DNA from: a virus
Length of the DNA stretch: 64,000 nt
Direction: 5' to 3' (one strand)
Virus record (IMG/VR): IMGVR_UViG_3300028844_002501
Span: 1 to 64,000 of that record
A program made the translations under genes and the position numbers. The notes under the pieces are model-generated. The model did not search any database. It saw only the letters and a list, made by a program, of their open reading frames with translations, and was not told the DNA's origin. Below, piece after piece: positions 1 to 18,089 of this stretch (position 1 is its first letter; every line of letters begins with the position of its first letter).

Positions 1-992
1 GCCGCACCACTAATCACATCACTATCTAGTCCATAGTATTGCATAATTGTATTGCCTTTTGTACTAGCACCCATGATATAAACTTTCTTTCCGTTTTCTA
101 CTTCTGAACGTAAGAAGTTCATAGTGTCATCTCTATTCTTATCGATGTTTGTTTTCCAATCAGTGTATCGTTCTACTGAACAATTCTCTTCGTACTCACA
201 ACTACCTTCATTCAAGTGTCGAATATAAAGTTGATAACTGCCACCATTGATGTCGTTCTCACGTACTTGATATATCTCTAATCCATTACGTTCTAATAGG
301 TTTACTAGTGATTGATACGAGTAGTATTCAATATGTTCATGTATCACATTGCCCAAGTCGTTAGTATCTAACATTGGTCTTGCAGTCATTAATTGGCAGA
401 CCCAAACACCACTTTCGTCTAATATATGTTTGATATCTTGTACGAATTCATTTGGATTATCTAAGTCATAGAACATAGCGACAGTAGTAACAATCTTTGC
501 TTTACCATACCAGTCACCGATTTGTTTGTCCCAGTTCTTCTTGTTGAAGAAGTCGCCTATCATAATATCACAGTTCTCTTTTAATTCGTTGTGAATATTC
601 TGTGCTGGGTCAATACCAACTTTTATTACGTTGTCGGGATAAAAACTTAGAAGTGTGCCGTCGTTTGCACCAATATCAACAACTAAGTCTTCGTCTTTTA
701 GTTCCACTTCATACGATGCGTCTACTGTTATACTCTCTAAGTTATCAACAATCTTTTTGTTCAACCTAGATAGATACCAATAATTTTTATACAGGTCTTC
801 TTCTCGCACAGTATGAGTTAGTTGTACTAAATCACATTCTTTACAATGCACTAAGGCAAGTGGTGCTGTTCCTACATCTAAGTTTGGTTCTTTGACAAAT
901 GCATTAATTTTCAAATCTCCAATATCAAATACTGTGTTAAGGTCTTTGTTACCACAACTTCGACATTCTTCTATTTGCTTAATATTTGCCAT
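1..992 (-). CDS. Zinc-finger SAM-dependent C-methyltransferase (3' end beyond window)
   Basis: The last gene of the accessory operon; about 330 residues are visible and the C-terminus lies beyond the left edge. The N-terminus has two Cys pairs (C10/C13 and C50/C53), as in the zinc-binding domain of sugar C-methyltransferases of the TylC3/NovU type. A class I SAM-binding motif follows (DIGANDGT, residues 106-113), and a GASTKGNT segment near residue 307 is typical of the third domain of that family. Family knowledge suggests methylation of a nucleotide-linked deoxysugar. The ATG at 992 overlaps the upstream stop codon (TAATG) and has an AAAGGAG ribosome site. Next to a DegT-type aminotransferase and a cupin it fits sugar tailoring; the substrate is unknown. 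Confidence 0.85.
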   Translation of the reverse strand, partial: MANIKQIEECRSCGNKDLNTVFDIGDLKINAFVKEPNLDVGTAPLALVHCKECDLVQLTHTVREEDLYKNYWYLSRLNKKIVDNLESITVDASYEVELKDEDLVVDIGANDGTLLSFYPDNVIKVGIDPAQNIHNELKENCDIMIGDFFNKKNWDKQIGDWYGKAKIVTTVAMFYDLDNPNEFVQDIKHILDESGVWVCQLMTARPMLDTNDLGNVIHEHIEYYSYQSLVNLLERNGLEIYQVRENDINGGSYQLYIRHLNEGSCEYEENCSVERYTDWKTNIDKNRDDTMNFLRSEVENGKKVYIMGASTKGNTIMQYYGLDSDVISGA

Positions 993-1597
993 TATAACTC
1001 CTTTATATAACTGATGTCAGGATACGTATATGACCCTGCAACATCTTCGTTGTATACTTTATTCTTAATAAAATTATGTAATCCTAACTCAGCAGTTTCT
1101 GGTGTCATAAACATATGATATCCCAAAACTTTCATCTTATCTTCTTCGTATGGAACACTCATATCTCTTCCATCATGTACCGCAAGTTGCGCCCAATCGT
1201 AAAAATCTTTATCATCAGTGAGTATCATTCCACCTTTAATAGTACTTAGTATCTTTTTAAATTGAAAACTCAAGCAATGGTATGTTCCTGGTATATACAT
1301 ATCTTTTGTAAATCTAGGAGCACCATCTACGATGTTTGTAGGTTCAATTGGATAAACACCTTTCCATTCTTTGTCTACAAAATTCACATCAAACCCAGCA
1401 TGTATCATTTGCATTGGCGCACTAACATAAGTATTTTTTGGCATCTCAACAGTACAAGTTCCGTGTTTCTTCTTATAGTATATAGCACTTAAAAATATAG
1501 CATGACTACAACAGTCAGTTGCAATACTATATGGTGCATTGGCATAATCAGCCACTACTCTCTCAAACTTATGTACTGTGTCAAATGGATTTACCAT
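992..1597 (-). CDS. DegT/DnrJ/EryC1-type aminotransferase, short form
   Basis: Resembles the PLP-binding domain of sugar aminotransferases (DegT/DnrJ/EryC1/StrS). The segment SFQFKKIL followed by GGMILTDD matches the active-site region, making Lys115 the likely Schiff-base lysine. At 201 residues it is about half the usual ~370-400, so the small C-terminal domain is missing. The upstream TDCCSHAIFL segment corresponds to the phosphate-contact Ser/Thr region. It starts inside the end of the preceding gene (7-bp overlap) and ends on the methyltransferase start codon. It could be a minimal aminotransferase acting on a nucleotide sugar or a degenerate copy; activity cannot be judged from the sequence. 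Confidence 0.7.
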   Translation of the reverse strand: MVNPFDTVHKFERVVADYANAPYSIATDCCSHAIFLSAIYYKKKHGTCTVEMPKNTYVSAPMQMIHAGFDVNFVDKEWKGVYPIEPTNIVDGAPRFTKDMYIPGTYHCLSFQFKKILSTIKGGMILTDDKDFYDWAQLAVHDGRDMSVPYEEDKMKVLGYHMFMTPETAELGLHNFIKNKVYNEDVAGSYTYPDISYIKEL

Positions 1598-2391
1598 GTT
1601 ATATCTACCAAAGTTGCAGTAATTGTATTTCCATAATTTCCATCTACTATATTCGCAAACGGAATATCAGAATATTTCTTTTCTGTGCTGTTGTATTTTT
1701 TTAGCCAATTATGAAAAGCATCACTACTATATAGTTTCTTACGTCTTTCATTCTGAAAAAGAAATGAAGGTCCTACACTATCTATGTCCATTATATCTGA
1801 ATTGCTAGGATTATCATCGTGTGCCCATGCTTCTTCAAAACTTCTTCCAACTCTACATTCATCATTTAAATATACATCTGCGGTTGTATCTAAAATATTG
1901 TCTTCAGTTACATGAAAGGCATATTCTTGTTGATTATGAGTTATATCAAATCCAAAAATATAATCGTTACCAACAGTTGCTTGTATATCCATATAATTTG
2001 GTGTAACTAAAGAATCTTCGTAATCATGTATGTTATGGTTGATTAATTGTAAATCTTGTATATTATATCCACCTTTATTAAATGCAGTTGTAAATTGTCT
2101 ATGTATTATATTACATTCTTCAATAGTCAATGAGTTGCCAATCGTAACTGCGGGTTCAATGCCAGTTAATCTAAAACCTTTTCTTAAATTTTCCAAAGCA
2201 TCAATAGGTGTTTTTGTAAGCCAATGGCCCGAATAAGAGCGCCCTATTTCTGGTGGCAGTGGTCGTTGGTATAATTCAACATTATTTGTTTTACAGACTT
2301 TACAGATTTCTAATACTTTTTGATTCGTGGCGGTGTCGAACACGTCAAGTGTTAGGGTTTCGTTATTGTCAAATTTAAATTTCATTTCCAT
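1591..2391 (-). CDS. Protein of unknown function in the accessory operon
   Basis: A 266-residue soluble protein without signal peptide or membrane segment. I do not recognise it. The N-terminal ~60 residues are a short beta-rich start followed by a Cys pair (KVCKTNN region, CxxC-like spacing ICKVC) and a Pro-rich stretch (PLPPEIGR). The remainder is acidic with many Asp and Asn residues. It overlaps the cupin gene upstream (17 bp) and the aminotransferase downstream (7 bp), so it is translated as part of the same unit and probably serves the same pathway. Whether it binds metal or substrate is unknown. Confidence 0.7.
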   Translation of the reverse strand: MEMKFKFDNNETLTLDVFDTATNQKVLEICKVCKTNNVELYQRPLPPEIGRSYSGHWLTKTPIDALENLRKGFRLTGIEPAVTIGNSLTIEECNIIHRQFTTAFNKGGYNIQDLQLINHNIHDYEDSLVTPNYMDIQATVGNDYIFGFDITHNQQEYAFHVTEDNILDTTADVYLNDECRVGRSFEEAWAHDDNPSNSDIMDIDSVGPSFLFQNERRKKLYSSDAFHNWLKKYNSTEKKYSDIPFANIVDGNYGNTITATLVDITW

Positions 2392-2782
2392 TTTTGTTCA
2401 CTTTCACAATCGGGTCATTACATTTATCCCAATGTTTTGTTAACATACTGACAAAAGAATAATCTTCTAATGCTCTGAATTTGTGAGATGTTCCAATAGG
2501 TATACGAATACTATCTCCTACTTCTAAGGTAATAGTAATATCTTCATTGTCAGACACAAATTCAGTATACTCACATCTACCAGAGACTACCATCATATAC
2601 TCATTAAACTCTGGATGATAATGATATCCCCTTTCGTCACCTTTCTTAGTGACCATAAGATTGTATTCAGTCAAGTTATCATCAATAGGAAAACTAAAGA
2701 TTGTGCCACGACTATCTTTAAAGATGTCGGCAGATACCATTTCTGTTTTACTATTCTCTTTAATCTTATTGTATCGCATCAT
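2375..2782 (-). CDS. Cupin-fold protein, WxcM/FdtA-like sugar isomerase type
   Basis: A single-domain cupin of 135 residues. Cupin motif 1 is visible as RGYHYHPEFNEYMMVVSG (H54, H56, E61), and motif 2 as GDSIRIPIGTSHKFRAL with H100. The opening DSRGTIFSF resembles the start of WxcM-like and FdtA-like dTDP-sugar 3,4-ketoisomerases and of RmlC-related proteins, which work beside DegT aminotransferases. Three His and one Glu are placed to hold a metal. The start with two Met codons overlaps the upstream gene by 17 bp. An isomerase or epimerase role in nucleotide-sugar processing is inferred from fold and neighbours. Confidence 0.75.
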   Translation of the reverse strand: MMRYNKIKENSKTEMVSADIFKDSRGTIFSFPIDDNLTEYNLMVTKKGDERGYHYHPEFNEYMMVVSGRCEYTEFVSDNEDITITLEVGDSIRIPIGTSHKFRALEDYSFVSMLTKHWDKCNDPIVKVNKNGNEI

Positions 2783-3980
2783 CTAACCATTTATAAACAT
2801 TATCAAAATATGATTTTGTTATTTCTCTGAACTCTTTACTAAAATATCTTTTCTTATTATACACCAATCTGTCTTTCAATTCAAGTGTTTTTTCTGCTAA
2901 TTCTTCTGGTGTTAATTGATTTATAATTTCCATCTGTTCAATAACCATCTCTATACGTTTAAACATATCCTCTTCCAGGTCATAACTGTTATCAAATACA
3001 TCATCAAAAGTATCAAATCCCCAATGTCGAAGAACTTCTAATGTTCTAGGTTGACCTATAATCATAAAAGGATGCATAAAGACAATTGCTTTAAATACTA
3101 CTTCTGATACATAACAGCCAGGTCCTACAGGGCTACTTTCGGTTAACACACTCATAAAAGAGTTTTGATAAAATGATGCTGAACTCCATAAGGTATCATC
3201 ATAGAAGCAACCATTTTCTTGGAATTCATCAACGTCAAGCACTAGTGGCAAATCGTTCATAAATTTGTTCGCTTCTGTTCTCAATTTCTCAATATTGACA
3301 AGGTTATACTTATCATATATCTCACCATGTTTTTCTTTATCTGCTACTATCCATTCAATGTGTTCTTCGAATGTCTCACCATCCATAGTCTTTGCACAAC
3401 TTATCAGATTATTATCTAACATATTCATCTCACGCAATCTTAATAAGAAATACATTCTATGAGGTTTATGTATTCTGTTGAAACTTAGAAATGTGTTATT
3501 GAATGTTCGTTGGTCTATAAATGTATTTGGTATATCATACTTAAATCCACCAGTTTTTGCTTCTTCCCAATAGTAATGATTCCATCCAGGAACAAAGAAT
3601 GTCTTTATATTTGATTTGCTATTGTCTGATACAAAGAAGTCACCAGATGCCCAACAAGTATTTTTTATGTCTGCACCATGTTGCTCTAGTTTTTCATCAA
3701 TGTTTATATTCTCATGGTAAAAGAAATTACCTTCAGAACATATAGGCTCTTGTACTGTGCTAATTACAACCCTTGATTCTTTGGGTAACTTCTTTGCTAT
3801 ACTACCATCTTTGACACATTCTATTCCTGCGTTTCCCAACTCTTGTGAAATTCTAGGTTCATATATTAATCTATTACTTTCTTCAAATTTTATATTATAA
3901 TCGAAGAACATATTGTAAAGACACATCCACCATTGGTCGTCTCCCAAATTCTTGAATCTGGTTATGTCTATTGTTAGCAT
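2766..3980 (-). CDS. Glycosyltransferase-like protein (exostosin-like C-terminal motif)
   Basis: A 404-residue soluble protein. The C-terminal third has a segment seen in exostosin-like and other phage glycosyltransferase-like proteins: a Glu in SVLTESSPVGPG, then YVSEVVFKAIVFMHPFMII, GQPRTLEVLRHWGF and a DDVFDNSYD tail. This is the E...K...HPF...G.P..L...GF.TF pattern common in marine phage genomes. The N-terminus has no clear Rossmann motif. It overlaps the SGNH hydrolase gene upstream by 7 bp and the cupin gene downstream by 17 bp. Transfer of a sugar onto a glycan or protein is inferred only from this pattern and the operon. Confidence 0.55.
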   Translation of the reverse strand: MLTIDITRFKNLGDDQWWMCLYNMFFDYNIKFEESNRLIYEPRISQELGNAGIECVKDGSIAKKLPKESRVVISTVQEPICSEGNFFYHENINIDEKLEQHGADIKNTCWASGDFFVSDNSKSNIKTFFVPGWNHYYWEEAKTGGFKYDIPNTFIDQRTFNNTFLSFNRIHKPHRMYFLLRLREMNMLDNNLISCAKTMDGETFEEHIEWIVADKEKHGEIYDKYNLVNIEKLRTEANKFMNDLPLVLDVDEFQENGCFYDDTLWSSASFYQNSFMSVLTESSPVGPGCYVSEVVFKAIVFMHPFMIIGQPRTLEVLRHWGFDTFDDVFDNSYDLEEDMFKRIEMVIEQMEIINQLTPEELAEKTLELKDRLVYNKKRYFSKEFREITKSYFDNVYKWLDDAIQ

Positions 3981-4939
3981 CCATCTATTCCATTGTGGAC
4001 CATGTCAGTAGGTATATTATCTGTATTGAATGACAAATATCTCTTCATTGCTTCTGCCATAACCCAGTTTCCTTTTTTACTCATATGTCCGTCTTCTTTA
4101 GAGATAACCATGTCTTCTTCTTCAATTTTATTCTGTTTCATTACACGGTCTATATCCGAAGTTAGATTCATATATATAAAATCATAACTTTCAAGTGATT
4201 CTCTATAATCTTTATTATATTTCCACCAATCATAATTGCCCCAATCTTGCATCGTCCACCAAAAAACTTTCACATTGTGTATTTTGCTCAATCCTTTAAC
4301 GAGTAATAAATTTCTTTGAAAATCTGATTGGTCGTTCTCTTCTGTATTTAAAGTCTCAAAAGCAGTTTGTATCTTAGTTACTAAACGTAAGTTGGTGGGA
4401 TTCCAAGAATGTCCAGGAGAAATATTAACAGTTGAGTAGTGTAATTTATTCTCTTCAGTCCTATTTGTAAAGTATGTTCTTCTTGCATTGAACGAGAATC
4501 CACAGATAACATTCTCTATTTGATTTCCATATCTGTTACAATATTTTGAAAGAATATTTGTAATTAATGTATTACTTGCACCACGTATACCAACATTTAT
4601 AACTTTGTAATCTTTGTATACGGAATCTTGTAAGTGCTTAGTCCACGTATCTTTATAATACATGCCATCACAAAACGTAAAACTATCACCCACACAAAGT
4701 ACAATCTTATCTTCAGGATTTATTTTTTCTTCAGGTGAAAGACTTCTTGTTTGTAATTCTACATTCCAGTCATCACATATTTCATAGTGTCCTTCTCCGC
4801 ATAAAGGATTCCGATGAGTTGCAGGAAGAATTGTATCAAGTGGAGAAAACAATTGATTATCTGGTCGAAGATGATTTGGATCCTTGTCAGATTCTTTCCA
4901 ATCATCTGCTTCTTTAAACGTCATCACGCAAATATCCAT
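3974..4939 (-). CDS. SGNH/GDSL-family hydrolase
   Basis: The classic SGNH blocks are readable: block I GDSFTFCDG with the nucleophile Ser, block II around NVGIRGASN, a block III candidate near CGFSFNARR, and block V DGHMSKKGN carrying the Asp-His pair. Family members are esterases or O-acetyl-glycan deacetylases. No signal peptide is present, so it acts in the cytoplasm or on virion parts. The start at 4,939 overlaps the upstream gene by 26 bp; a second ATG at 4,924 is an alternative and neither has a clear ribosome site. Acting on acylated or acetylated sugars would suit the surrounding glycan genes. Confidence 0.75.
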   Translation of the reverse strand: MDICVMTFKEADDWKESDKDPNHLRPDNQLFSPLDTILPATHRNPLCGEGHYEICDDWNVELQTRSLSPEEKINPEDKIVLCVGDSFTFCDGMYYKDTWTKHLQDSVYKDYKVINVGIRGASNTLITNILSKYCNRYGNQIENVICGFSFNARRTYFTNRTEENKLHYSTVNISPGHSWNPTNLRLVTKIQTAFETLNTEENDQSDFQRNLLLVKGLSKIHNVKVFWWTMQDWGNYDWWKYNKDYRESLESYDFIYMNLTSDIDRVMKQNKIEEEDMVISKEDGHMSKKGNWVMAEAMKRYLSFNTDNIPTDMVHNGIDGC

Positions 4940-6245
4940 CTAGTTCATAACTCAATTCAGGAAATGTCATTCTGAAATTTTCATTTCTTAATTTGTCTAA
5001 TTCTTCATTATGTTCTAATGCTTTTTTTAGAGAATCGATATCTGTTGGTGCAGATTCATATGAAACTAATTGATTTATCAATGTGTGTATTGCCCATTCT
5101 CTTTCACCAGAGTCAATTGCCTCTAATGGTCCGTCTTTCTCAAAGTAGTTTCTCATTTCTTCTGTGACTAATTTTCTTAATTCTTGTGGCAAAACATTTA
5201 CACTATAGTAGTCTGGTTGAGTAACAAAATTGTGATGAACTTGAAGTTCATTGGCTGCCGCCCATTCTAACATATCTACTAGATAAAAATAATTCATCCA
5301 ACTTACTGTCTGTGTTACTGAGAATTTAAATTTTTTCTTTTGATGAAATGGTAAATCTTTTCTTGCTTTTTTAAGCATATTAACTGATTTTGTAACATCT
5401 GTCCATTTTGTAGGATGTCTTATGTATTCGTTTCTATCTTCAACATCATCTATACTAAATCCAACCTCAACATAATCGAATTGTTTCCAAATTTCAATTA
5501 TTTCTTCAGTCATGTTAGTCATATTGATGTTATACCATAATTTTACATTAGTTCTTCCTGCTTTAATCATTCGTTTTAAAAATCTAAAGTGTTCTTTAAT
5601 TAAAGTAGGCTCTCCACCATTGATATAAAATACTTTGGCATTTTTTGAATTTTCGAACAAGTCGTCCCAGAACTTTTCTTGCTCTGGCCAATCGAATTGA
5701 TTCATCCCCTTGTCAAATAAATCCAGAGTAGTAAATTTACTTTGCAATTTGTTATAGTCTGCTATCCATTTACTACTACTCCAAGGATTACATGTTCTGC
5801 ATTTAGCATTGCATATATTGCCTAATCGTAGTTCAATGAATTCTAAATTAATCTCTTTTATAGACCCATCTTCATTTGTGTTCGCTCTTGCTATTTCTTC
5901 AGTGTGATGAGAATATATTTCATTCTCTCTAAGTCTCTTACTATGAATTCCATTCTCTTCTTCTCTAAAGCATCTTTTACATGTAACTGGCTCTTCTCCA
6001 TTTAACATCTGAAGCCTTAGTTCATTAAATGAATCTGCATTCATTAATTGCTCAATTGAGTGGTCTTTTAGATTTAAGAACTCATCATTACCAACATTAT
6101 TTGGTAAGACATTTTTTCTAACTGGTGCCCAGTTTCTTGCCCTAGATATTCCACCTTCATGATTCGCAACACAACAAATTGTTGTTCCGCCGTGTGGGTG
6201 TGATGCTAAGTGCATCCAAGGTAATGAACAGAATACTTTACTCAT
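4914..6245 (-). CDS. Radical SAM protein with N-terminal twitch-type cysteine domain (1)
   Basis: The radical SAM motif is CNAKCRTC (C145, C149, C152), followed by a GGEPTL SAM-contact motif. Before the core lies a second cysteine cluster: FCSLPWMHL, then an ICC pair (C6, C24, C25) and CKRC (C89/C92). This is the pattern of N-terminal twitch radical SAM proteins, expected to hold an auxiliary iron-sulfur cluster. An open frame extends to 6,320, but the ATG at 6,245 (MSKVFCSLPW) is chosen because it leaves only an 8-bp overlap with the previous gene and puts the conserved FCxxPW near the N-terminus. Substrate unknown; the auxiliary cluster suggests a peptide or glycan substrate. Confidence 0.85.
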   Translation of the reverse strand: MSKVFCSLPWMHLASHPHGGTTICCVANHEGGISRARNWAPVRKNVLPNNVGNDEFLNLKDHSIEQLMNADSFNELRLQMLNGEEPVTCKRCFREEENGIHSKRLRENEIYSHHTEEIARANTNEDGSIKEINLEFIELRLGNICNAKCRTCNPWSSSKWIADYNKLQSKFTTLDLFDKGMNQFDWPEQEKFWDDLFENSKNAKVFYINGGEPTLIKEHFRFLKRMIKAGRTNVKLWYNINMTNMTEEIIEIWKQFDYVEVGFSIDDVEDRNEYIRHPTKWTDVTKSVNMLKKARKDLPFHQKKKFKFSVTQTVSWMNYFYLVDMLEWAAANELQVHHNFVTQPDYYSVNVLPQELRKLVTEEMRNYFEKDGPLEAIDSGEREWAIHTLINQLVSYESAPTDIDSLKKALEHNEELDKLRNENFRMTFPELSYELDGYLRDDV

Positions 6246-7644
6246 CCCAACACTCCATCCACCAATCGTATAGTTCAGGACAATGCTCTTGGTAAATGTC
6301 TTCGATTGTAGGCATACCAATTTGTTTATCTTTTCTTATTTCACTTAATTTTGCTTGGAACTGTCTACCGCCAACTGATGGCTCGTGGTGGTCATTCCAT
6401 TGTTCTGCAAATGTTGGTCTATTTTTCATTTCATGTAATGTTTTAATTAGTGTATCTTGGTTTCTATCTGCAAGTGGTTCCATATAATCTAGGTTGTCTT
6501 GTATAACTTTATCAAGTATGTGCCTAGGCCATGCAAATGGAGAGAATACCATATCTGGATGGAATGCAAACATCATCTTTGTTTCCATTCTTACACCAAG
6601 TTCTTGGCTCAAATCGAATAATTCTTTTAATGAGAACATACCTGGACCTGTGATTGTTAGGTCTAATAACATCTTGTCTTTACCACCAGGTAACATACAA
6701 CCCTGTTTGAAGTTTTCTAACCACTCTTCCCACACTAAACCAGTTCGAATGAATTCACCAATTTTACCTGTACCATCAATACTTGCACACATCATCCAAT
6801 CTTTAAACTGTGGTAAATAGTCATACAAGTTTTTACCTTTGAATGTAACCCGAGACAAGTTAGAATTATATCGAAGATAACAATCTTTGGCAGTTCCTGC
6901 TTGTGTCATCTTTTCTAATGTTTCCCAATGAATATCATACATGAGAGGTTCACCACCAACCCAATATATTTCTTCTACAATGCCCTCGTCAATCGCTTTT
7001 CTAAACTCTGGCTCGACAACATTAACAGTAAATGAATTCATTTTCTTTTTTACATCTGGTATCATAAACGGATGCTCTTCAGGTGACCACAACTTGTGTG
7101 TCTTTTTTTCTGCTTCCCAACTTGAACTCAATAGTTCTCCGCACATTCTACACTTGAAGTTACATAGATTACTGAAGCGGTAATCGAATGAGATTGTAGG
7201 CATAGATGTTCTACCCTCATCATCTGTCTTCTCAAATGCTTCTTCAATCTTATGTTTGAATAGATGACCTGTAAACCATTTCTTATATGAACTCAAACTC
7301 AGGATGTCATCGTTACAAACATCACATTGTGGAATAGTTTCACCTGCCATAAGTTTCTTCCTTATGTCCATCATGTATGGTGAGTTCCAATGTTCTTCTA
7401 ATGTAAGTGGATTGAAATCGTCTGCTTTTGTTTTGACTTTCTTTTCTATACCGTACGAGTCATCATTTGATGCATCAATGTATTGTTTTTGAAACTGGTG
7501 TTCCTCACGTGATGCACAGCACATTCTTCTTTCACCTTGTGGTGAAATGTAAGTGTGTGTCCATGGTGCCATGCAAAAAGTTTTGTTTTTACTTTCTTCA
7601 GCACAACTGCCATCATCTTTCCATATTGGTATAATTTTACTCAT
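6238..7644 (-). CDS. Radical SAM protein with N-terminal twitch-type cysteine domain (2)
   Basis: A 468-residue enzyme. The SAM-cluster motif is CNFKCRMC (C161, C165, C168), with GGEPLM downstream as the SAM-contact motif. The N-terminal auxiliary cysteines are FCMAPWTHTY (C24), MCC (C42, C43) and CDVC (C107/C110). The KTFCMAPWTH and PQGERRMCC arrangement matches the preceding paralogue in type, but overall the two are distant. Its 3' end overlaps the next radical SAM gene by 8 bp, which suggests translational coupling and joint action. No membrane segment is seen. Confidence 0.87.
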   Translation of the reverse strand: MSKIIPIWKDDGSCAEESKNKTFCMAPWTHTYISPQGERRMCCASREEHQFQKQYIDASNDDSYGIEKKVKTKADDFNPLTLEEHWNSPYMMDIRKKLMAGETIPQCDVCNDDILSLSSYKKWFTGHLFKHKIEEAFEKTDDEGRTSMPTISFDYRFSNLCNFKCRMCGELLSSSWEAEKKTHKLWSPEEHPFMIPDVKKKMNSFTVNVVEPEFRKAIDEGIVEEIYWVGGEPLMYDIHWETLEKMTQAGTAKDCYLRYNSNLSRVTFKGKNLYDYLPQFKDWMMCASIDGTGKIGEFIRTGLVWEEWLENFKQGCMLPGGKDKMLLDLTITGPGMFSLKELFDLSQELGVRMETKMMFAFHPDMVFSPFAWPRHILDKVIQDNLDYMEPLADRNQDTLIKTLHEMKNRPTFAEQWNDHHEPSVGGRQFQAKLSEIRKDKQIGMPTIEDIYQEHCPELYDWWMECWDE

Positions 7645-8918: not shown

Positions 8919-9504
8919 ATTTTTTCCAAGCCTCCATAACTTCAGGCATATTGTCAATAAGGTTCATCTTTTCTTCTTTTGTATTCTGTTTTACAAATTT
9001 TCCTTTATATTCTTTAACATTAATGTCTTCATATGCAATATTTATGATTTTAAACTTATGACTTAATTCTTGTAGTGCGTTCTGGTAATCTTTATCAACC
9101 CGGTGAAATGTCTTTACTTTTTCATCTACGTCTTTTATCTTAAATTTTTTATATTTTTCTTTATTCTCACTATTCCAGTGTTTACTATTATAACTTATAT
9201 GCCAACTTAAGAATTGTTCAAGTAAATCTTTTCTGTAACTATTAATAATCAAATCAGGATTTACAACTTCAACGATATCTATGGGATTATATTGTGGCAA
9301 ATCAGATGGATATTCATCAAAGAATAGTTTACAAGACCAATTCTTTTCTATTGTTAGTCTACTAATACTTTTTTTAAATTCTGATTCGCCCTTATCAAGG
9401 ATAATACCTTCACCGAGCATATTAAGATTTAATTTATTTGCCCAAATAGTTTGCACTATAGTTGTGCCACATCTGCCATGTGAAGATATAACCAGTAATT
9501 TCAT
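8911..9504 (-). CDS. Sulfotransferase-like P-loop protein
   Basis: A 197-residue protein opening with KLLVISSHGRCGTT. This fits the 5'-phosphosulfate-binding loop of sulfotransferases (SxxRSGTT type), with Arg and Gly-Thr-Thr retained. A second segment, NPDLIINSYRKDLLEQFLSW, looks like the 3'-phosphate-binding region, where Arg and Ser contact PAPS (Y-R-x-D-x-L is typical). The protein is small and Lys/Glu-rich toward the end. It lies between radical SAM genes, 1 bp from the next gene upstream. Sulfation of a sugar or protein is the family expectation; a nucleotide kinase is a less likely alternative. Confidence 0.65.
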   Translation of the reverse strand: MKLLVISSHGRCGTTIVQTIWANKLNLNMLGEGIILDKGESEFKKSISRLTIEKNWSCKLFFDEYPSDLPQYNPIDIVEVVNPDLIINSYRKDLLEQFLSWHISYNSKHWNSENKEKYKKFKIKDVDEKVKTFHRVDKDYQNALQELSHKFKIINIAYEDINVKEYKGKFVKQNTKEEKMNLIDNMPEVMEAWKKYD

Positions 9505-11049: not shown

Positions 11050-12449
11050 TTTTTGTCTCCGGCAGTTTTTATACTATCATACCAATCTACGATGATAGGG
11101 TCAAAAGTCTTTCTAAAATCTTTATTTCTTCTTTTATCATATTGTGTATAAAATGATTTAAAATCAATTTGTCTCTGTTCGAGTTTATCGGCAGTAATAG
11201 GGTTATTTATGATGTCGTTAAGTTGGGACAACAATCTTGTTACATGGACATCTTCAATATCAATTAACTCTGCTTTTCTTTTGTCATACCACTCCTGTAT
11301 TTCATCAGTGTAGTGTTGTAGTATATGAGTTGGCAATGTAGACATACTCTGAAATTCTGGATTATATACAGGATTTAACGACAATATTGGTCCACGAAGC
11401 ATTCTCGTATTTATAGGTTTATCTTTTCTTATATCTAATATTTTGTCCATAAACTCTGTTATCGAATTTAGACACAAAGCATTTATTGTCATCATTACAT
11501 ATACCCTTTGTACTTGTGTTTCATTTAGTATTCTTTCAACATTTATTACCCATCTATCGTAATCTATTCCATCTCTAATATACTCTGCATGGGCACCTAC
11601 AGATTCATTGCTTGTAAATATTTCAAAATTCGGAACACTATCTGCTATATCTAATAACTTCTGAAATGTTTTTTCTTTGTCTGGAACGAGATTAGAATTA
11701 ATAGATAACCTAATATTATCACCTCGACCTGGATTTTCTTTAAACCATTCAAATAATCTCCAAACACTTGGATGCATAATAGGTTCGCCACCCGTAATAC
11801 GAAGACCCTCTAACGTGTCTACTAATCCGCCTTCTACATCCCACCATTTCCAAAATGCTTGAATATAAGGATTCACTTCTTCTGATTTAGGTGCAATTTC
11901 TGCCCATTCTGCGTCACTTTTATAATGCATTCTTTTATCGCTATCAAGACCGATATACGGTCCATTGTCTTTGATATCTTTTGCCCATGTCGTACTAAAT
12001 GTTGGACCACAATATGAACAAGCAAAGTTACAGGCTCTATCGAATGATATTTCTAATGTTCTTAAAAATGTGTCTTTATCCCAGTTTACTAACGGAATTT
12101 GATTTAAATCATTCTCAGTATAGTTTACAGTCTTAAGCACTCTTTCAGATAAGTTCTCTTCTTGTAAATCTTCTACATTCCAACACTTGTAACATTCTGC
12201 AGGTCTTTCACCTTCTAGCATTGACAATCGTTGTTGTTTTTTATGATTTGTGTTATGAATTGCTGTAGGATTATTTTTGAGTTCACTTATCGGAATTTCA
12301 TGGGCGGCGGGAAGATGACAACTAACTGTGTGTCCATGTCCGAGCCATATAGTCGCTCCGTGCCATTTCGCACCACAAAACGTAGGACTAATTGGATCCA
12401 TAACCCTTTTCTTATATTCTAAAAGTGTTTCGGATTCTAACTTTTTCAT
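11046..12449 (-). CDS. Radical SAM protein, N-twitch paralogue B of a tandem trio
   Basis: A 467-residue middle copy. The radical SAM motif is FDRACNFACSYC (C140, C144, C147), with ITGGEPIMH as the SAM-contact motif. The N-terminal auxiliary cysteines are C25, C44, C86 and C89 in the trio pattern (SPTFCGAKW, SCHLPAAHEIP, CYKCW). It is the most compact of the three and gives the best view of the core fold. It overlaps its neighbours by 4 bp on each side, so the trio is almost certainly co-translated. Three diverged copies in tandem suggest successive or position-specific modifications of one substrate class. Confidence 0.87.
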   Translation of the reverse strand: MKKLESETLLEYKKRVMDPISPTFCGAKWHGATIWLGHGHTVSCHLPAAHEIPISELKNNPTAIHNTNHKKQQRLSMLEGERPAECYKCWNVEDLQEENLSERVLKTVNYTENDLNQIPLVNWDKDTFLRTLEISFDRACNFACSYCGPTFSTTWAKDIKDNGPYIGLDSDKRMHYKSDAEWAEIAPKSEEVNPYIQAFWKWWDVEGGLVDTLEGLRITGGEPIMHPSVWRLFEWFKENPGRGDNIRLSINSNLVPDKEKTFQKLLDIADSVPNFEIFTSNESVGAHAEYIRDGIDYDRWVINVERILNETQVQRVYVMMTINALCLNSITEFMDKILDIRKDKPINTRMLRGPILSLNPVYNPEFQSMSTLPTHILQHYTDEIQEWYDKRKAELIDIEDVHVTRLLSQLNDIINNPITADKLEQRQIDFKSFYTQYDKRRNKDFRKTFDPIIVDWYDSIKTAGDKK

Positions 12450-14257
12450 CTATGATATTTGTCCTGGTACTCTTCTGCCGCTTCATCCCAAAACTCCTTC
12501 ATCTCAGGAAATGTTTCTAAGAAGTTTAATCCACGTCTTTTATCATATTGAGTGAAGTATTGGTAAAATCGAATCAGTCTATCACTTAATTCGTCTTCAT
12601 ACATTGCTTCGCCCTCTTTAGCCCATGCTAAATCCCTCTCAAGTTTTAATACTTCGTAGTTTTTAAATCCTTTATAAGTTTTTCCATAAACTTCATCAGA
12701 ACAAACATTCGCTTTCATATAATCGATGTTGTCTTCTATAACTGTTAACAACTCTTGGTCGCACAATTGAATATTAAACCAATTAGGGTCTCTTAAATAT
12801 GGCAAATCAAACCAAATCTTCTGAGCCAAGACTTTATGTTTGTTATCTATTTGATATTGATACCCGTATTTTTCTCTTAGTTCTAACATATAATTTAAAA
12901 ATCCACGCAAAGAAGGAACACTCAATAAGTTAAATGTGTTAATAAATGTCACACTAACTCTAGTGGTCTCTGTAAGAAGTCGGTCAACATTACGTTTCAA
13001 TTTCTCAAAATCTAAGCCGTCACGCATGTACTCTGCTTGTGGTCCTATGCCATCTACGCTAATAAAAACACTAATATGTTTACATGCAACGTTGTCAAAT
13101 ATATGATTCCACTTGCCCCATTCGTTGTTTCTTTTATAGTGATTCATGTATAAGAAACTATTGTCATCTGGTTCTATGCATGGACCTAATCCAGTGAACT
13201 CCTGTTTGATATCTTCAGCCGATATAGTATCTACATTAGGTTGAATTTCGTGTGGAATAATACCATGTAATGTTTCTTCTAAAATATACTGTGTCCAAGT
13301 TTTCCAATGACTTCCATCTTTTGGGTCTTTTACATAGAATATAATATTTCTAAGTCCGTCATCATTTGATTTTGGCTTTTCAAACAACGTGTCGAAATCT
13401 ACCTCTACTACAGTTGGGTCATTTTCTGCAATAAGTGGTTCTTCTAATACTTTTACTTTCTCAATAAACTTATCAAATAATGCATCATCTGGAGGACACA
13501 TATTCGTAGTCAGTGAAACTTCTAAATCAGGATTTGGATTATCTCTAATATAATCTAATACTTTAAAAGTATTTTTATCCATAAGAGGTTCACCACCAGT
13601 CATACGAAAAATCTTTAGATTAGAATATATATCCGGAAACCATTTCCAAAATGCTTCAATATAAGGATTATCTTTACGTGCAACTTCTAATGGCATTAAG
13701 CCAATAGTTTTGAGTTCTTGTACGTTATTATGGCCACCACCGTCATCGAAATTAAATGAACCATGTTCTTTGATATCATCTTCCCATGCAGTAGACAAGT
13801 GAGGCGAACAATATGCACACTTGAAGTTACATGCTTGATTAAAATTGACTTCGACATATCTAGGAGCAATGTCATGGTCCCAAGCATTTTCTACTACTTC
13901 ATTCCAAGCATCTTTAACCCACCACTCACTACTGCGATAATGTCTATCACTTAGTCTGCCACCTTCTGGTGGATTTGCGGCATCTTCTACATTCCAACAG
14001 TACTGACATCCCTTTGGTCTGTCACCATTTAACATTTGTCTACGTTCATGTAGTTTAAACTGTGTATTATGTAGTGCGTTTGGATTTGCCTTTAACTCAT
14101 CTAATGGAATAGCATGAGTAGGGGGATGATAGCAACTGTGAGTTCTACCTTGTGGAAGATGCAAACTGACTTGTAGCCATTTTGCCATACACATTGAAGG
14201 CGATATGTCGTTTAACTTGCCTCTTGTAGCAATCGCATCATCATCGTAGTTTGCCAT
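12446..14257 (-). CDS. Radical SAM protein, N-twitch paralogue C with a ~120-residue insertion
   Basis: The largest of the trio at 603 residues. The radical SAM motif is FNQACNFKCAYC (C143, C147, C150), with MTGGEPLMD as the SAM-contact motif. Auxiliary cysteines C23, C42, C84 and C87 follow the trio pattern. Compared with paralogue B, about 120 extra residues (roughly 270-390) interrupt the second half of the barrel before the shared SVDGIGPQAEYMRDGLD segment. The insert is acidic with one Cys (GLGPCIEPDD) and could be a substrate-recognition lid. The upstream gene stops 1 bp before the ATG. Confidence 0.86.
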   Translation of the reverse strand: MANYDDDAIATRGKLNDISPSMCMAKWLQVSLHLPQGRTHSCYHPPTHAIPLDELKANPNALHNTQFKLHERRQMLNGDRPKGCQYCWNVEDAANPPEGGRLSDRHYRSSEWWVKDAWNEVVENAWDHDIAPRYVEVNFNQACNFKCAYCSPHLSTAWEDDIKEHGSFNFDDGGGHNNVQELKTIGLMPLEVARKDNPYIEAFWKWFPDIYSNLKIFRMTGGEPLMDKNTFKVLDYIRDNPNPDLEVSLTTNMCPPDDALFDKFIEKVKVLEEPLIAENDPTVVEVDFDTLFEKPKSNDDGLRNIIFYVKDPKDGSHWKTWTQYILEETLHGIIPHEIQPNVDTISAEDIKQEFTGLGPCIEPDDNSFLYMNHYKRNNEWGKWNHIFDNVACKHISVFISVDGIGPQAEYMRDGLDFEKLKRNVDRLLTETTRVSVTFINTFNLLSVPSLRGFLNYMLELREKYGYQYQIDNKHKVLAQKIWFDLPYLRDPNWFNIQLCDQELLTVIEDNIDYMKANVCSDEVYGKTYKGFKNYEVLKLERDLAWAKEGEAMYEDELSDRLIRFYQYFTQYDKRRGLNFLETFPEMKEFWDEAAEEYQDKYHR

Positions 14258-15250
14258 TTAGTGTCCGCTCCACCCTGTGGATTTTTCTGTCGCTAATGGA
14301 TTATCACTTCTTGGTGGATTTGTATAAACCTCTTTAAAGAATGAACTTGTTTCTGGTGTAGGGTCTGTTATTTGCATTCTGATTCTTTCACTTAGAATAT
14401 CACCAATTCGTAAAGCCTCATCATATAACTTTTCGTAATCCCATTCTACACCGGTTCTACTACATTTTTCACTATTATTATCACTTGAACAAGTGGGCAG
14501 TACTTCTTCTTCAAAATATGACTTGAACCAATCAAACGATGAGATATTTTCTAGTTTATAATCTTCCACAAAGTTTACATCATAGCACCCAAGCCTTGCT
14601 CCGTAACAAGCCCATAGACCATTTTCAACATCAGCACCAACGTTACACCATGTTAATAGTCTTTGATAATTTTTATGCCATATTCTCTTTTTAAAGTCTT
14701 CGATTGGCACTGTTTTGCCTTCGTCTAACGACATTTTAACACCCTCACGGTATCCTGCACGAAATGCCTGAAATGGTGAGCCTGCATTATATACCTCTGA
14801 GTATATGTTGTTCATCTGGATATAATTCAAATCCCAACAGAAGTCTACTTTCTTTGTTTCATCTTCTGCATTCTCGTGTGTTTTCATTTCTAACACCAAG
14901 TCTACCGGCCAACATTTAATACCACCATTACCATATACAAGACCATTTATCATGTTCTTTGCACTCCAACTAACTATAGAGTTTGCTAGGTCAGTATCTT
15001 CTGGAAATGAAATTGCTAAATCAAAAAACTTTTCATCAACAATATTGTCTCCATCTATTGTTATAAATCTTTCTGTTTCACTTTGCTTTGCACATTCTTT
15101 ATGTGCATTGTCAAATCCTTTTACTCCGTCAACTCTCTTAGCAAAAGGAAACTTCATCATTAGATTCGCCCAATGTTCTTCCTTTGCTGGTTCATCGTAA
15201 CTGATGTAAAATACATCTAAGTCACCGATTATTACTTGCTTCGATTTCAT
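14258..15250 (-). CDS. GT-A-like glycosyltransferase candidate
   Basis: A 330-residue soluble protein. RFITIDGDNIVDEKFFDL is typical of GT-A glycosyltransferases, in which an Asp-x-Asp pair at the end of a strand holds the metal and nucleotide sugar. Another informative segment is the acceptor-like NGLVYGNGGIKCWPVDLV. Five Cys residues are scattered in the second half (LTWCNVGAD, LWACYGARLGCYD, PTCSSDN). There is no signal peptide. It is packed between the radical SAM trio and a small unknown gene, with 1-3 bp spacing. Assignment as a glycosyltransferase is moderate and the donor is unknown. Confidence 0.6.
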   Translation of the reverse strand: MKSKQVIIGDLDVFYISYDEPAKEEHWANLMMKFPFAKRVDGVKGFDNAHKECAKQSETERFITIDGDNIVDEKFFDLAISFPEDTDLANSIVSWSAKNMINGLVYGNGGIKCWPVDLVLEMKTHENAEDETKKVDFCWDLNYIQMNNIYSEVYNAGSPFQAFRAGYREGVKMSLDEGKTVPIEDFKKRIWHKNYQRLLTWCNVGADVENGLWACYGARLGCYDVNFVEDYKLENISSFDWFKSYFEEEVLPTCSSDNNSEKCSRTGVEWDYEKLYDEALRIGDILSERIRMQITDPTPETSSFFKEVYTNPPRSDNPLATEKSTGWSGH

Positions 15251-15253
15251 AAT

Positions 15254-15820
15254 TTACTCCCACGAATATTTGTCAAAATACTTCTGAGTGTATACACTCA
15301 CATTGTATTTATTATATGATAACTTAATGCTTTTTCCAGAAGACAAAAGTTCTGAGAATGGCACTAATATTGTCTTTATTAAGAAATCAGGTCTATCTTT
15401 GTGGGTCACGAAGAACACATGTTCTGTCTTGCCAGCAATAGTTACTACTTGGTTTTCATCTATTCCTATCACTTCTTTGAGTTTGTCGTTAGCAGTGAAC
15501 ACTAATGTCTCGTCCTCTAGTGAAAGTAGTATATCTGCATCTTCTGTTTGTTGTATCTTATGTAGTTGATTATCTTTGTTTCTTCTTTTGATATCAACTT
15601 TTGTTTTAATAATTTCGAAAATGAGTGGATTATCAGTTCTACTAACTATGTAATCAGAGAACTTATATTTTCCTTCAAGGAATGGCTTAATATCTTCTAC
15701 TTCAAACCAAGCACATAAGTCCTTTGTGTCTTGTATTTGCCTTGATATTTGTGTGATAGCACTAAATCCATCAAAGTAAACAGCACGGCATGTATCAGTC
15801 TTTTCTAGCACACTTTTCAT
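15254..15820 (-). CDS. Protein of unknown function in the accessory operon
   Basis: A 188-residue soluble protein that I do not recognise. It begins with a Cys-containing strand (DTCRAVYFDGF) and has a basic middle (DIKRRNKDNQLHKIQ) and a beta-rich C-terminal half ending in YTQKYFDKYSWE. No catalytic motif, signal peptide or coiled coil is apparent. The ATG overlaps the stop of the upstream GT8-like gene by 4 bp. It lies among three glycosyltransferase-like genes, so an accessory role in the same glycan pathway is plausible. Confidence 0.65.
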   Translation of the reverse strand: MKSVLEKTDTCRAVYFDGFSAITQISRQIQDTKDLCAWFEVEDIKPFLEGKYKFSDYIVSRTDNPLIFEIIKTKVDIKRRNKDNQLHKIQQTEDADILLSLEDETLVFTANDKLKEVIGIDENQVVTIAGKTEHVFFVTHKDRPDFLIKTILVPFSELLSSGKSIKLSYNKYNVSVYTQKYFDKYSWE

Positions 15821-16773
15821 AATACTGCATCCTCAAGTTGTTTAATTTTAGTACTGTCCATCCAATTCTTCTCTACATAATGCACAGGCAGTGTTTGAGT
15901 AAAGTTACCAATCTTAACTTGTAAATCATCTCCCATCTCACTTGTTATGCTTTTAGTCCAGATAGAGTTTATTTCGCTTTCTGGTATATTCTGTACCATA
16001 CTTTTCATATGAACAAAAGTCGGAACATCTTTGATATTATAGTCACATGTTTCCTCTTCGATGTCTAATAGTTGAATAGCCAATGCATATGCGATATCGG
16101 CACTCATCCAGTTCTGTCCCATTCCACTAAGAAACTTATCAAAGTAAGCATTCCAATGTGTCATAATCAATTCAACCATTTTGAAGAACATAAATGTTTC
16201 TTGTGATTTCTTAAAATAAGTAAAATTACTATATATATTTGGTAAGTTTAATAGTGTAAACTTCTTTCTATAATAGTCACTCGTTACATCTTCGTTTCTG
16301 AAAGTCTTAACATTCGTACAGAACCAAAGATTTTTTGTTGATAGATAATCCCACCAGTGGTCAACACTATCAGTGAATATCATATCACTATCTAGGATAA
16401 TTGTTTCATGGTAAGGTGTCATATGTGAATATTTCCACTTATTATGTATCTTCCATTTATCACCCTTTGCATCATCATTCCAGGGAATATCAACGATGGC
16501 ATCAAATACTTCTCTATGTCTGTCTGTAATTAACTTTTTAGTTTCTTCGTCTACACATACACAAAGTTTATTAATTTTCTGTGTTGCTTTTAAACTTAGG
16601 GCAAGAGCATATGACATTTCTAAATAATCATTGTCTTCACTATTTTGAGCAATAGTTATATATCCTTTAGTCGATGTGGGATTTTTAAACCAATCTGGAT
16701 TCTCTTTTACTTTATCTCTCCAATCACTCCAGTCTGGATTAACTGGTGGAACATAAGTATCTTTTTCAACCAT
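15817..16773 (-). CDS. GT8-like glycosyltransferase (1)
   Basis: A 318-residue soluble protein. The first strand, GYITIAQNSEDNDYLEMSYALALSLKATQ, is the nucleotide-binding start seen in GT8-type enzymes. ETIILDSDMIFTD carries the metal-binding DxD. The NFTYFKKSQETFMFF and ADIAYALAIQLL segments correspond to similar ones in the next gene, so the two are distant paralogues. A late His in VPTFVHMKSM could be the third metal ligand. It overlaps the neighbouring gene by 8 bp on one side and 4 bp on the other. The likely role is transfer of a hexose from a nucleotide sugar. Confidence 0.72.
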   Translation of the reverse strand: MVEKDTYVPPVNPDWSDWRDKVKENPDWFKNPTSTKGYITIAQNSEDNDYLEMSYALALSLKATQKINKLCVCVDEETKKLITDRHREVFDAIVDIPWNDDAKGDKWKIHNKWKYSHMTPYHETIILDSDMIFTDSVDHWWDYLSTKNLWFCTNVKTFRNEDVTSDYYRKKFTLLNLPNIYSNFTYFKKSQETFMFFKMVELIMTHWNAYFDKFLSGMGQNWMSADIAYALAIQLLDIEEETCDYNIKDVPTFVHMKSMVQNIPESEINSIWTKSITSEMGDDLQVKIGNFTQTLPVHYVEKNWMDSTKIKQLEDAVL

Positions 16774-17641
16774 TTACTTTTTCTCCATGTTTCAGAAAGT
16801 CATCAATAAGTCTTCCTATTGCTTTCTTATTCATAATATGAATATCTGTTTTAGTGAACCTTGATAATAGGTGATTACTAATTTGTTCTGCATCAGCACA
16901 ATACATAATAATATCTTCATGTGAATTTATTCTAAAGATATCATCAAGGTCGAAACTATTACTAAGATAGTCTATAGGCAAAGATGGAACTTCAAAAGCA
17001 ACCCCACCATTCAATATATGTAATGCCATAGAAAATGCAAAATCATTTCTATATAAATTGCCACTACAGTTATATAGATAATAATAATACTTATAATTGT
17101 ATTTTATATGATTTACAAGAGTGAATAGATTTTCTGCATATTCAGATTTTTTAAAGTAGACTATTGTTGCCCAGAACATAGGAATACTAAAATTATCAAT
17201 ATATTCAATGTTCACTTTGTGTCTGTCTGCAATATCTCTGAACTTAGAGTTAATCATTATATCATTTTCACTGCCCCATACTTGGTCGAGAACATCGTTC
17301 ATAATGAAATAGTCACTATCTATGACTAACGTTTCGTCATATGGAGACAAATCATATACATCGCCTCTACCTAAGTTCTTAAAGGATGCATACTCAGTGT
17401 TTTTCACGGTGTCTTTAAATAATCTTACATTATCAGGTTGAAAAGTATCGCTAATAATTACTTTATCAAAGTATTCATTTATCTTTTCAGCATTAGAAAC
17501 AAGTGTCTCTGTGTTTGTTATTAGGCATATCTCATCAAACAATGACAGATTTTTTCTGGCAAAGCCAGCACAAGCACATGCCTGTGAAGCATAATCGACA
17601 TACTCATTATTTTGAGCAAATATTATAATACCTTTACTCAT
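16766..17641 (-). CDS. GT8-like glycosyltransferase (2)
   Basis: A 291-residue soluble protein, a distant paralogue of the downstream gene. Its N-terminal strand is KGIIIFAQNNEYVDYASQA; the metal-binding Asp pair is in ETLVIDSDYFIMND; TIVYFKKSEYAENLF and DFAFSMALHIL match the paralogue segment by segment. The region KYYYYLYNCSG is unusually Tyr-rich. The start codon follows the stop of the operon's first gene after 1 bp. Two GT8-like copies side by side suggest sequential addition of two sugars. Confidence 0.7.
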   Translation of the reverse strand: MSKGIIIFAQNNEYVDYASQACACAGFARKNLSLFDEICLITNTETLVSNAEKINEYFDKVIISDTFQPDNVRLFKDTVKNTEYASFKNLGRGDVYDLSPYDETLVIDSDYFIMNDVLDQVWGSENDIMINSKFRDIADRHKVNIEYIDNFSIPMFWATIVYFKKSEYAENLFTLVNHIKYNYKYYYYLYNCSGNLYRNDFAFSMALHILNGGVAFEVPSLPIDYLSNSFDLDDIFRINSHEDIIMYCADAEQISNHLLSRFTKTDIHIMNKKAIGRLIDDFLKHGEKVNG

Positions 17642-17642
17642 A

Positions 17643-18035
17643 TTAAATTTCTAAGACTTTTTGAATTTTACGTGAACTTCTTAATTTCTGATATTCGTTA
17701 TAATAATCATTGACTACTTCAAAATATAAACTTGATATTTCACTTAGAAATTTTTCTGTATCTTCAATGAAAATAGGAATTTGATTTTTATCAAGTATTG
17801 ATATTTCTGTTTTGCCGGATGAAACAACAAAATGCATGAAAGAAATAAGTGATTGGTCAACCGCAAACGAACCACCACTAGTACTGTGGCTTAGTAAGTT
17901 TTGGGTCTTGACTTTTAGATTGTTTTTATTTAAATTGAAGGTTTTCATTGTGTTAGAGAATTCAAGTGCTTTCTCTAAACGCTCTAAATCTTCTGCTGAT
18001 GCTTCTGTTTTTACCTCTGGTGTGGTGCTAGCCAT
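17643..18035 (-). CDS. Unknown protein, first gene of the accessory operon
   Basis: A 130-residue protein that I do not recognise. The frame is open to 18,089, but the ATG at 18,035 (MASTTPEVKTEAS) is chosen because GGAGAAAAATAT directly precedes it and because the promoter at 18,061-18,089 would make transcripts that begin inside the longer frame. The N-terminal 20 residues are polar and probably disordered, followed by a helical segment (EDLERLEKALEF), a Ser-rich turn and a C-terminal amphipathic helix ending in basic residues (RSSRKIQKVLEI). There is no membrane segment. It is the promoter-proximal gene and so probably the most highly expressed one of the operon. Confidence 0.7.
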   Translation of the reverse strand: MASTTPEVKTEASAEDLERLEKALEFSNTMKTFNLNKNNLKVKTQNLLSHSTSGGSFAVDQSLISFMHFVVSSGKTEISILDKNQIPIFIEDTEKFLSEISSLYFEVVNDYYNEYQKLRSSRKIQKVLEI

Positions 18036-18060
18036 ATATTTTTCTCCTATAATAGTACTT

Positions 18061-18089
18061 ATAATACTATATATAGGGCAAAAAGTCAA
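18061..18089 (-). promoter_or_regulatory. Sigma70-type promoter of the 18-kb accessory operon
   Basis: On the minus strand TTGACT (18,089-18,084) is separated by 17 bp from TATTAT (18,066-18,061). Start of transcription is expected near 18,054, about 20 bp before the first start codon. No T4-type late box lies upstream of this operon, so host-polymerase (early) expression is inferred. Confidence 0.75.

Follow-up and report, generated by a model that had tools for sequence, protein, structure and literature searches.

A conserved, putatively sugar-building gene cluster in a jumbo phage lineage

Why would a large marine bacterial virus carry six radical SAM (rSAM) genes among glycosyltransferase (GT) genes in one operon? 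The locus that raises this question lies in a 64,000-nucleotide window (the whole stretch of DNA analyzed, positions 1 to 64,000 of the 98,866-base IMG/VR virus record IMGVR_UViG_3300028844_002501), from a jumbo lineage in which the capsid protein is 67% identical to its PA5oct counterpart. The cluster begins on the minus strand at the ATG at 18035, after a terminator-like hairpin, and is truncated at base 1, which is the contig end, leaving the 3' end of the operon absent (Table 1). All cluster genes lie on one strand and, as had been predicted, abut or overlap their neighbors, and together they look like a gene run for building and rewriting unusual sugars.

The original prediction named conserved synteny in marine viral genomes as its check, and we found the order u148-GT291-GT318-GTA330-rS6-rS4-..-rS2 kept in 43 non-redundant, mostly marine viral loci, where the module usually adjoins late baseplate/fiber genes of PA5oct-like jumbo phages. 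This synteny rules out a set of several unrelated insertions or scattered homologues, although the periphery is mosaic. Chance or misannotation is likewise ruled out by the Pfam and N-twitch scores and the intact motifs, and decayed paralogues by the same motifs and by purifying selection (dN/dS <0.4 throughout the module, and 0.04-0.12 for rS2, which is 89-96% identical to its close relatives). The expectation that such a density of rSAM genes would be unusual for a phage of this kind was not supported, because relatives have 5-21 N-twitch model matches per record (with at least 13 over cut-off at the upper end) and rSAM-rich marine T4-like phages have already been published (PMC5332604, PMC7029224).

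Table 1. Features of the module and its upstream flank in the window
Feature	Position	Strand	Description	Basis or remark
C-methyltransferase	3..992	-	Methyltransf_13/23/14	Pfam; cut by contig end
DegT/DnrJ-type	992..1597	-	Aminotransferase-like, short, 201 aa	Pfam
u266	1591..2391	-	Unknown	No family assigned
Cupin	2375..2782	-	Sugar isomerase type	Pfam
exo404	2766..3980	-	Exostosin/GT-B-like by eye	Motifs; without database match
SGNH/GDSL	3974..4939	-	Hydrolase-like	Pfam match below cut-off
rS1	4914..6242	-	N-twitch rSAM	Start chosen at 6242
rS2	6238..7644	-	N-twitch rSAM	Most conserved rSAM gene
rS3	7641..8918	-	rSAM, SPASM-like domain at C-terminus	Start chosen after 8957
Sulfotransferase-like	8911..9504	-	GRxGTT and RxDxxxQxxS motifs	Motifs; without database match
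rS4	9505..11049	-	N-twitch rSAM	N_Twi_rSAM score, motifs
rS5	11046..12449	-	N-twitch rSAM	rS4 is its closest paralogue
rS6	12446..14257	-	N-twitch rSAM	Extra segment, residues ~280-384
GTA330	14258..15250	-	GT-A-like GT, DGD motif	Fold matches
u188	15254..15820	-	Unknown	Position kept in closer relatives (locus comparison)
GT318	15817..16773	-	GT8-like GT	Profile match to glycogenin
GT291	16766..17641	-	GT8-like GT, GT318 paralogue	Sequence comparison
u148	17643..18035	-	Small helical protein, 130 aa, first gene of module	ATG 18035, AGGAG
Promoter	18061..18089	-	Sigma70-type, TTGACT-N17-TATTAT	Motif shared upstream of u148
Hairpin	18137..18165	-	Intrinsic-terminator-like, between late virion genes and module	12 pairs, T-rich tail
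p305	18308..19225	-	Fiber-like, S/T-rich (27%), between p215 and module	Composition, position
p215	19243..19890	-	Late virion-region gene adjoining module	PA5oct homologue annotated as seen by mass spectrometry

Of the three predicted GT-A/GT8-like proteins, two are GT8-like: GT318 as a profile matches glycogenin (GT8, E 1e-6), and GT291 is homologous to GT318, with a direct GT8 match of only E 0.03. The top fold matches of the third, GTA330, are all GTs or nucleotidyltransferases and are borderline (E ~1e-3, TM ~0.3). Pfam bears out the C-methyltransferase (~400 aa long in relatives), the DegT-type enzyme (equally short in relatives) and the cupin, while the SGNH hydrolase match falls below threshold; the exostosin-like and sulfotransferase-like labels gained no database backing, including in PDB searches with both proteins, and are motif-based. 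The recognized families among 102 cargo proteins mostly concern sugar-nucleotide tailoring and include sugar-nucleotide dehydrogenases, epimerases, TylF, C-methyltransferase, carbamoyltransferase and mannose-6-phosphate isomerase; some relatives also encode IscU and IscA-type proteins.

No module protein has a clear membrane span (maximum 19-residue hydropathy 1.63) and no PF02397 domain was found, and we therefore rejected a module-encoded lipid-carrier start of polysaccharide synthesis. Rfam and tRNA scans returned nothing informative, and neither did tblastn searches of isolate phages with rS5, GTA330 and two GT homologues from a related locus (L084). Module-bearing contigs had been binned into unrelated MAGs, and host assignment from bins led nowhere.

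Radical SAM enzymes with a BtrN-like auxiliary domain

The six predicted rSAM genes are separate and intact between 4914 and 14257 and match Pfam Radical_SAM (E 1.5e-5 to 2e-9, some under the curated cut-off); nowhere else in the 98,866-base record is there such a match. Five (rS1, rS2, rS4, rS5 and rS6) score 289-359 bits against N_Twi_rSAM (NCBIfam NF033640; curated cut-off 170 bits) and are thus members of that family; all five keep the superfamily motifs CxxxCxxC (as CNxxCxxC) and GGEP together with four N-terminal cysteines (Cx17-18C ... CxxC). With 57.5 bits, rS3 falls under the cut-off and is instead SPASM-like over residues 324-413 (slightly under the Pfam cut-off), with CNAECPSC present alongside its Radical_SAM domain match. 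The proposed division into five proteins with N-terminal and one with C-terminal auxiliary cysteines is therefore correct.

To our knowledge, N-twitch rSAM enzymes have no assigned substrate, and the papers retrieved on them gave none. Their bacterial gene neighborhoods are mixed and not mainly glycan-related (~4 GT2 members among 104 neighbors), and Bdellovibrionota-type genomes carry N-twitch arrays (7-9 over cut-off per genome) without these GTs. Compared against the PDB, the N-terminal domain of the N-twitch proteins matched solely the twitch domain of BtrN (E 1.6e-7, cysteines aligned), and this BtrN-only match is new here. The Cx17-18C ... CxxC motif is invariant in 23 sequences, so that BtrN of butirosin biosynthesis (PDB 4M7S/4M7T) and the phage proteins have a four-Cys-ligand twitch domain in common, whereas this domain is C-terminal to the rSAM core in BtrN and N-terminal in the phage proteins. 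BtrN has a fully Cys-ligated auxiliary cluster and performs a two-electron oxidation (PMC9012708). From the four-Cys BtrN-type match we predict for the N-twitch enzymes, as the most likely activity, a BtrN-like two-electron oxidation of sugars.

A conserved sigma70-type promoter sets the module apart from late genes

A scan of the sequence for terminator-like sites found 8 against 6.9 expected by chance, and the argument for the hairpin upstream of the module is therefore its position. A sigma70-type motif stands 5' of u148 in 31 of 37 non-redundant loci, compared to 3 of 301 upstream regions of neighboring genes (Fisher p ~2e-34, indicative only, the loci being related); this conserved u148 promoter is new here. 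The same promoter class precedes an SbcD/SbcC-type operon in this record, and one match sits before the portal gene. Virion genes in the record are preceded by GATAAATA, and two late-type [TG]ATAAATA motifs lie at 19920-19943, by p215. Because the conserved sigma70-type promoter at u148 stands against the late-type motif at the adjacent virion gene, the module looks to be of the early class. With a hairpin and a sigma70-type promoter in front of it and no late motif, the module is unlikely to be reached by read-through from the late genes. An early-type switch would make remodeling of the infected cell possible, and not only of the virus particle.

Proposed early remodeling of host glycans and its alternatives

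As the best explanation, we tentatively propose that the operon is expressed early and builds a modified glycan within the infected cell, for a remodeling directed at the host. The conserved core, consisting of u148, the pair of GT8-like GTs, the GT-A-like GT, rS6, rS4 and rS2, would make and oxidize a sugar chain, which a variable cassette (C-methyltransferase, DegT-type enzyme, cupin, sulfotransferase-like protein, SGNH hydrolase and further rSAMs) would decorate. At the SAM-bound cluster a 5'-deoxyadenosyl radical would most likely arise and remove hydrogen from a carbon of the sugar; with the second electron passing to the auxiliary cluster of four cysteines, the result would be a keto-sugar, available to partner aminotransferases or methyltransferases. 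The product would most likely be placed on host surface glycan via host lipid carriers, since the search for a membrane protein or initiating transferase of its own came up empty, and might, for example, block superinfection or readsorption. Against this reading stand the mixed bacterial neighborhoods of N-twitch rSAMs and the Bdellovibrionota-type arrays without these GTs, the resemblance of the whole-length profile to peptide-modifying enzymes, the sigma70-type match before the portal gene, and the location of the module next to fiber genes. Synteny and the sugar-tailoring cargo thus favor the glycan side of the original prediction, which had envisaged an unusual sugar or peptide attached to virion or host; as to the place of attachment, the sigma70-type promoter argues for host-directed action and a late-type motif in Vibrio phage K566 points the other way. 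A bolder version, which we regard as rather doubtful, would see, in a family of jumbo phages, paralogous BtrN-like radical dehydrogenases, a dozen or more in an array open to expansion, work with dedicated GTs to rewrite the sugars of the infected cell early by radical C-H oxidation, with varying membership giving different surface chemistries; a glycan-editing system of this kind is not described in viruses.

A serious, though less likely, rival is glycosylation of tail fiber or baseplate-associated proteins such as p305, which would alter adsorption or shield the particle, early transcription merely stocking the enzymes. Most loci whose flank is long enough have p215/p305-type virion genes next to the module, this position in PA5oct is occupied by gp10-like fiber and virion proteins annotated as seen by mass spectrometry, and the S/T-rich p305 evolves faster than the core enzymes. 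The fold of u148 resembles DUF4376 phage proteins, which often adjoin fiber genes, and the rSAM and GT-like genes of K566 follow a fiber-like gene with a late-type TATAAATA. On the other hand, the conserved promoter and the hairpin part the module from the late genes, and in one locus (L077) u148 is positioned after the GTs, and so travels with GTs instead of fibers.

Radical modification of peptides, with rSAMs cross-linking or epimerizing a phage or host peptide and GTs adding sugars (cf. glycosylated RiPPs), appears improbable. Peptides are frequent substrates of SPASM/twitch rSAMs, the whole-length profile matches the peptide-modifying SkfB and anSME among others, and rS3 has its SPASM-like domain; yet among the genes neither Pfam nor inspection by eye pointed to a precursor peptide, a leader-binding domain, a protease or an exporter, the auxiliary domain matches BtrN only, and the recognized cargo is mostly sugar chemistry. 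There is a slim chance that the operon serves auxiliary metabolism without a structural glycan, e.g., a cofactor or a small secreted sugar metabolite, in line with cofactor-making twitch rSAMs such as MoaA, which is among the weak matches, but the three GTs of the conserved core would be superfluous in a soluble cofactor pathway. Early expression and the mix of GT, carbamoyltransferase and methyltransferase would fit decoration of a modified DNA base, as in TET/JBP phages, but this is very improbable, as Tet_JBP and TAGT occur in 0 of 11 records, some of 320-354 kb (the Tet_JBP control matched nowhere, making that half weak), and thymidylate synthase matches score like ordinary family members.

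Comparison with known systems

In T4-like marine phages, the pelagimyophage host recognition cluster (HRC) is a variable island near tail genes, between VrlC and gp14, with GT8-type GTs and rSAM cassettes, for which O-chain modification to avoid coinfection has been proposed (PMC7029224). The present locus shares the T4-like marine phage setting, the variable island near tail genes and the GT8-type and rSAM genes, but differs in its fixed GT/rSAM core, kept in the same order across 43 loci of a jumbo lineage, its conserved promoter and its many N-twitch rSAMs per record. Similarly, the T4-like marine genome TARA_ERS488813_N000010, published in 2017, has 12 rSAM genes alongside Fe-S assembly genes; that publication interprets them as Fe-S metabolism, and its passage on them does not describe a glycan context, operon core or promoter (PMC5332604). 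The isolated Vibrio phages K566 and K567 (~255 kb) likewise have N-twitch rSAM genes, five in number, with GT-like genes and a fiber-like protein interspersed among them, but homologues of the core GTs are undetectable in them and part of the cluster lies downstream of the late-type promoter motif. Our locus gives N-twitch rSAMs fixed partners (GT8-like, GT-A-like and sugar-tailoring genes), a domain match to a carbohydrate dehydrogenase and a promoter of probable early type, so that the role of rSAMs in rSAM-rich marine phages becomes directly testable, with K566 and K567 as the laboratory entry point. If the proposal is true, it would show viruses applying radical chemistry to glycans.

Gene content and conservation of the radical SAM cluster

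The module comprises about 18 overlapping or abutting genes, and its six radical SAM (rSAM) genes, rS1 to rS6, are the only rSAM-encoding places in the full virus record (98,866 bases, of which the window covers the first 64,000). Five of the encoded proteins are members of NCBIfam N_Twi_rSAM (289 to 359 bits; cut-off 170), all with four N-terminal cysteines, CNxxCxxC and GGEP kept, and rS3 is not a member and has a SPASM-like stretch at its C terminus, so that the original prediction of auxiliary cysteines at the N terminus in five proteins and the C terminus in one was correct. Its C-methyltransferase, DegT and cupin labels are solid, and its glycosyltransferases (GTs) can be refined to two GT8-like paralogues (GT318 and GT291) and a probable GT-A-like protein (GTA330); the SGNH label has a sub-threshold match, and the exostosin-like (exo404) and sulfotransferase-like labels have a motif basis only. 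The DegT-type protein, at 201 aa, is about half the usual length with its putative PLP lysine kept, and its length is conserved in relatives (201 to 202 aa). Within its rSAM domain rS6 is longer by a segment of about 105 aa, common to a minority of relatives and missing in most, part of which weakly matches phrog_15978.

Coordinates of the features discussed
Feature	Position	Strand or record
rSAM/GT module	ATG 18035 to contig end	- strand
DegT-type gene	992-1597	window
rS3	7641-8918	window
rS6	12446-14257	window
rS6 extra segment	residues about 280-384	rS6 protein
Low-dS regions	3-2782 and 6238-7644	window, versus L014/L092
K566 rSAM/GT region	10042-21010	L089

With rS6 as query, 80 loci were found in viral contigs. 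Across 43 nonredundant loci, selected via rS6 and GTA330 and thus trivially containing both, the core consisted of GT318 (40/43), GT291 (39/43), u148 (38/43), rS4 (37/43) and rS2 (32/43), in the kept order u148-GT291-GT318-(u188)-GTA330-rS6-(rS5)-rS4-..-rS2 at identities down to 30 to 50%. The variable periphery included rS1, rS3, exo404 and the sulfotransferase-like, SGNH, cupin, DegT and methyltransferase genes; longer relatives, with a cluster of about 60 kb in record G004, add thioredoxin-like, TylF-type methyltransferase, sugar-nucleotide dehydrogenase, epimerase, carbamoyltransferase and additional rSAM genes. Whole records gave 5 to 21 N_Twi_rSAM matches each (E <= 0.001), counts slightly above gene numbers, since this record gave 7 from six genes. 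Above the curated cut-off, one record had at least 13 among the matches listed, and none occurred in 14 control genomes. In two records, open frames of 830 and 1037 aa cover a pair of rSAM domains. In the tree, rS4, rS5 and rS6 form one group and rS1, rS2 and rS3 are placed elsewhere, and the set is therefore a product of duplication plus separate acquisition.

Compared with three close relatives, all genes that gave a finite dN/dS stayed under 0.4, with rS2 at 0.04 to 0.12. Against L014/L092, dS of the methyltransferase, DegT, u266 (of no recognised family), cupin and rS2 genes was 0.45 to 0.70, below the 1.1 to 2.4 of most neighbours, which suggests recent segment exchange between phages.

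Genomic position and promoter motifs

The major capsid protein shares 67% identity with that of PA5oct and lies near those of other jumbo T4-like phages, an affinity shared by the portal, baseplate and SbcD/SbcC-type genes; module-carrying records reach 342 to 354 kb. Adjoining p215, a late virion-region gene, PA5oct has gp10-like fibre and virion proteins that its annotation marks as detected by mass spectrometry, which places the module at the end of the baseplate region where the fibres lie.

Upstream of u148, at the head of the module, are a terminator-like hairpin and TTGACT-N17-TATTAT. The motif TTGAC-N16-20-TAtaaT precedes u148 in 31 of 37 nonredundant loci, against 3 of 301 regions lying upstream of p215, the S/T-rich fibre-like gene p305, GT291, rS6, rS4, rS2 and rS1 (Fisher p about 2e-34, indicative only because the loci are related). 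By strict count, p215 has late-type TATAAATA or a close variant upstream in 13 of 34 loci; many of the others show GATAAATA. The late-type motif in the window, L007 and L008 is mostly GATAAATA, versus TATAAATA in T4. Of 30 [TGC]ATAAATA sites in this record, 23 are intergenic, mostly just upstream of virion-region genes. For the strict sigma70-type motif there are 11 sites, of which 8 are intergenic and include those of the module and the SbcD/SbcC-type operon; the class is not perfectly clean because one site precedes the portal gene. The T4 counterparts of the SbcD/SbcC-type genes (gp47/gp46) are early. From these motifs, the module is inferred to be transcribed early, as a unit lying amid late genes.

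Target of the product

Such early timing favours a host target, which we propose tentatively. Glycan modification of the virion is a less probable but serious alternative, favoured by the adjacency of the module to fibre genes, the S/T-rich p305 and a late-type motif in Vibrio phage K566. No module protein showed a clear membrane span, an initiating phosphoglycosyl transferase was searched for and not found, and any surface glycan would therefore be made via host carriers; DNA-hypermodification markers were searched for and none were found.

The reading of the module as a sugar pathway is weakened by bacterial contexts. N-twitch neighbourhoods in bacteria are mixed with few glycosyltransferases, and Bdellovibrionota-type genomes hold N-twitch arrays (7 to 9 above cut-off in three genomes searched, up to 17 matches) beside which the glycosyltransferase core is absent, so the family is not sugar-specific by context everywhere. 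These array loci (L113-L116) belong to Oligoflexia, Bacteriovoracaceae and Halobacteriovoraceae. Contigs with the phage core also occur within bacterial metagenome-assembled genomes (L108, L109, L111, L112, L161, L177, L178) of unrelated taxa (Verrucomicrobia, Pelagibacter, Betaproteobacteria, Rickettsiales, Rhodobacteraceae) and are probably mis-binned phage.

Chemistry and comparison with known systems

Searched against the PDB, an N-terminal-domain profile of 23 phage enzymes had BtrN as its sole match (E 1.6e-7), and the cysteines line up. In BtrN, four Cys residues ligate the auxiliary cluster, and the reaction is a two-electron oxidation of an aminocyclitol, from which MoaA differs (PMC9012708). 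The twitch domain of BtrN is C-terminal, whereas its phage counterpart is N-terminal, and the phage enzymes are thus not BtrN orthologues. Their four-Cys ligand set nonetheless predicts an oxidising, electron-accepting role. The pairing of N-twitch rSAM and DegT-type aminotransferase genes recalls butirosin synthesis. Genes for IscU and IscA-type proteins occur in some relatives; jumbo phage records with one or other of these Fe-S assembly proteins are G006, G012, G013, G005 and G015.

The wealth of rSAM genes in marine T4-like phages is already published in PMC5332604, with which the IscU/IscA-type genes agree, as are GT8/rSAM islands in pelagimyophages (PMC7029224). The open-licence papers searched gave no account of the conserved operon core or its promoter class, nor of the BtrN-type twitch relation, the per-record counts or the isolate relative K566. 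Many genes of the K566 region are annotated as hypothetical; this isolate carries five N-twitch rSAM genes together with GT-like genes and a fibre-like gene.
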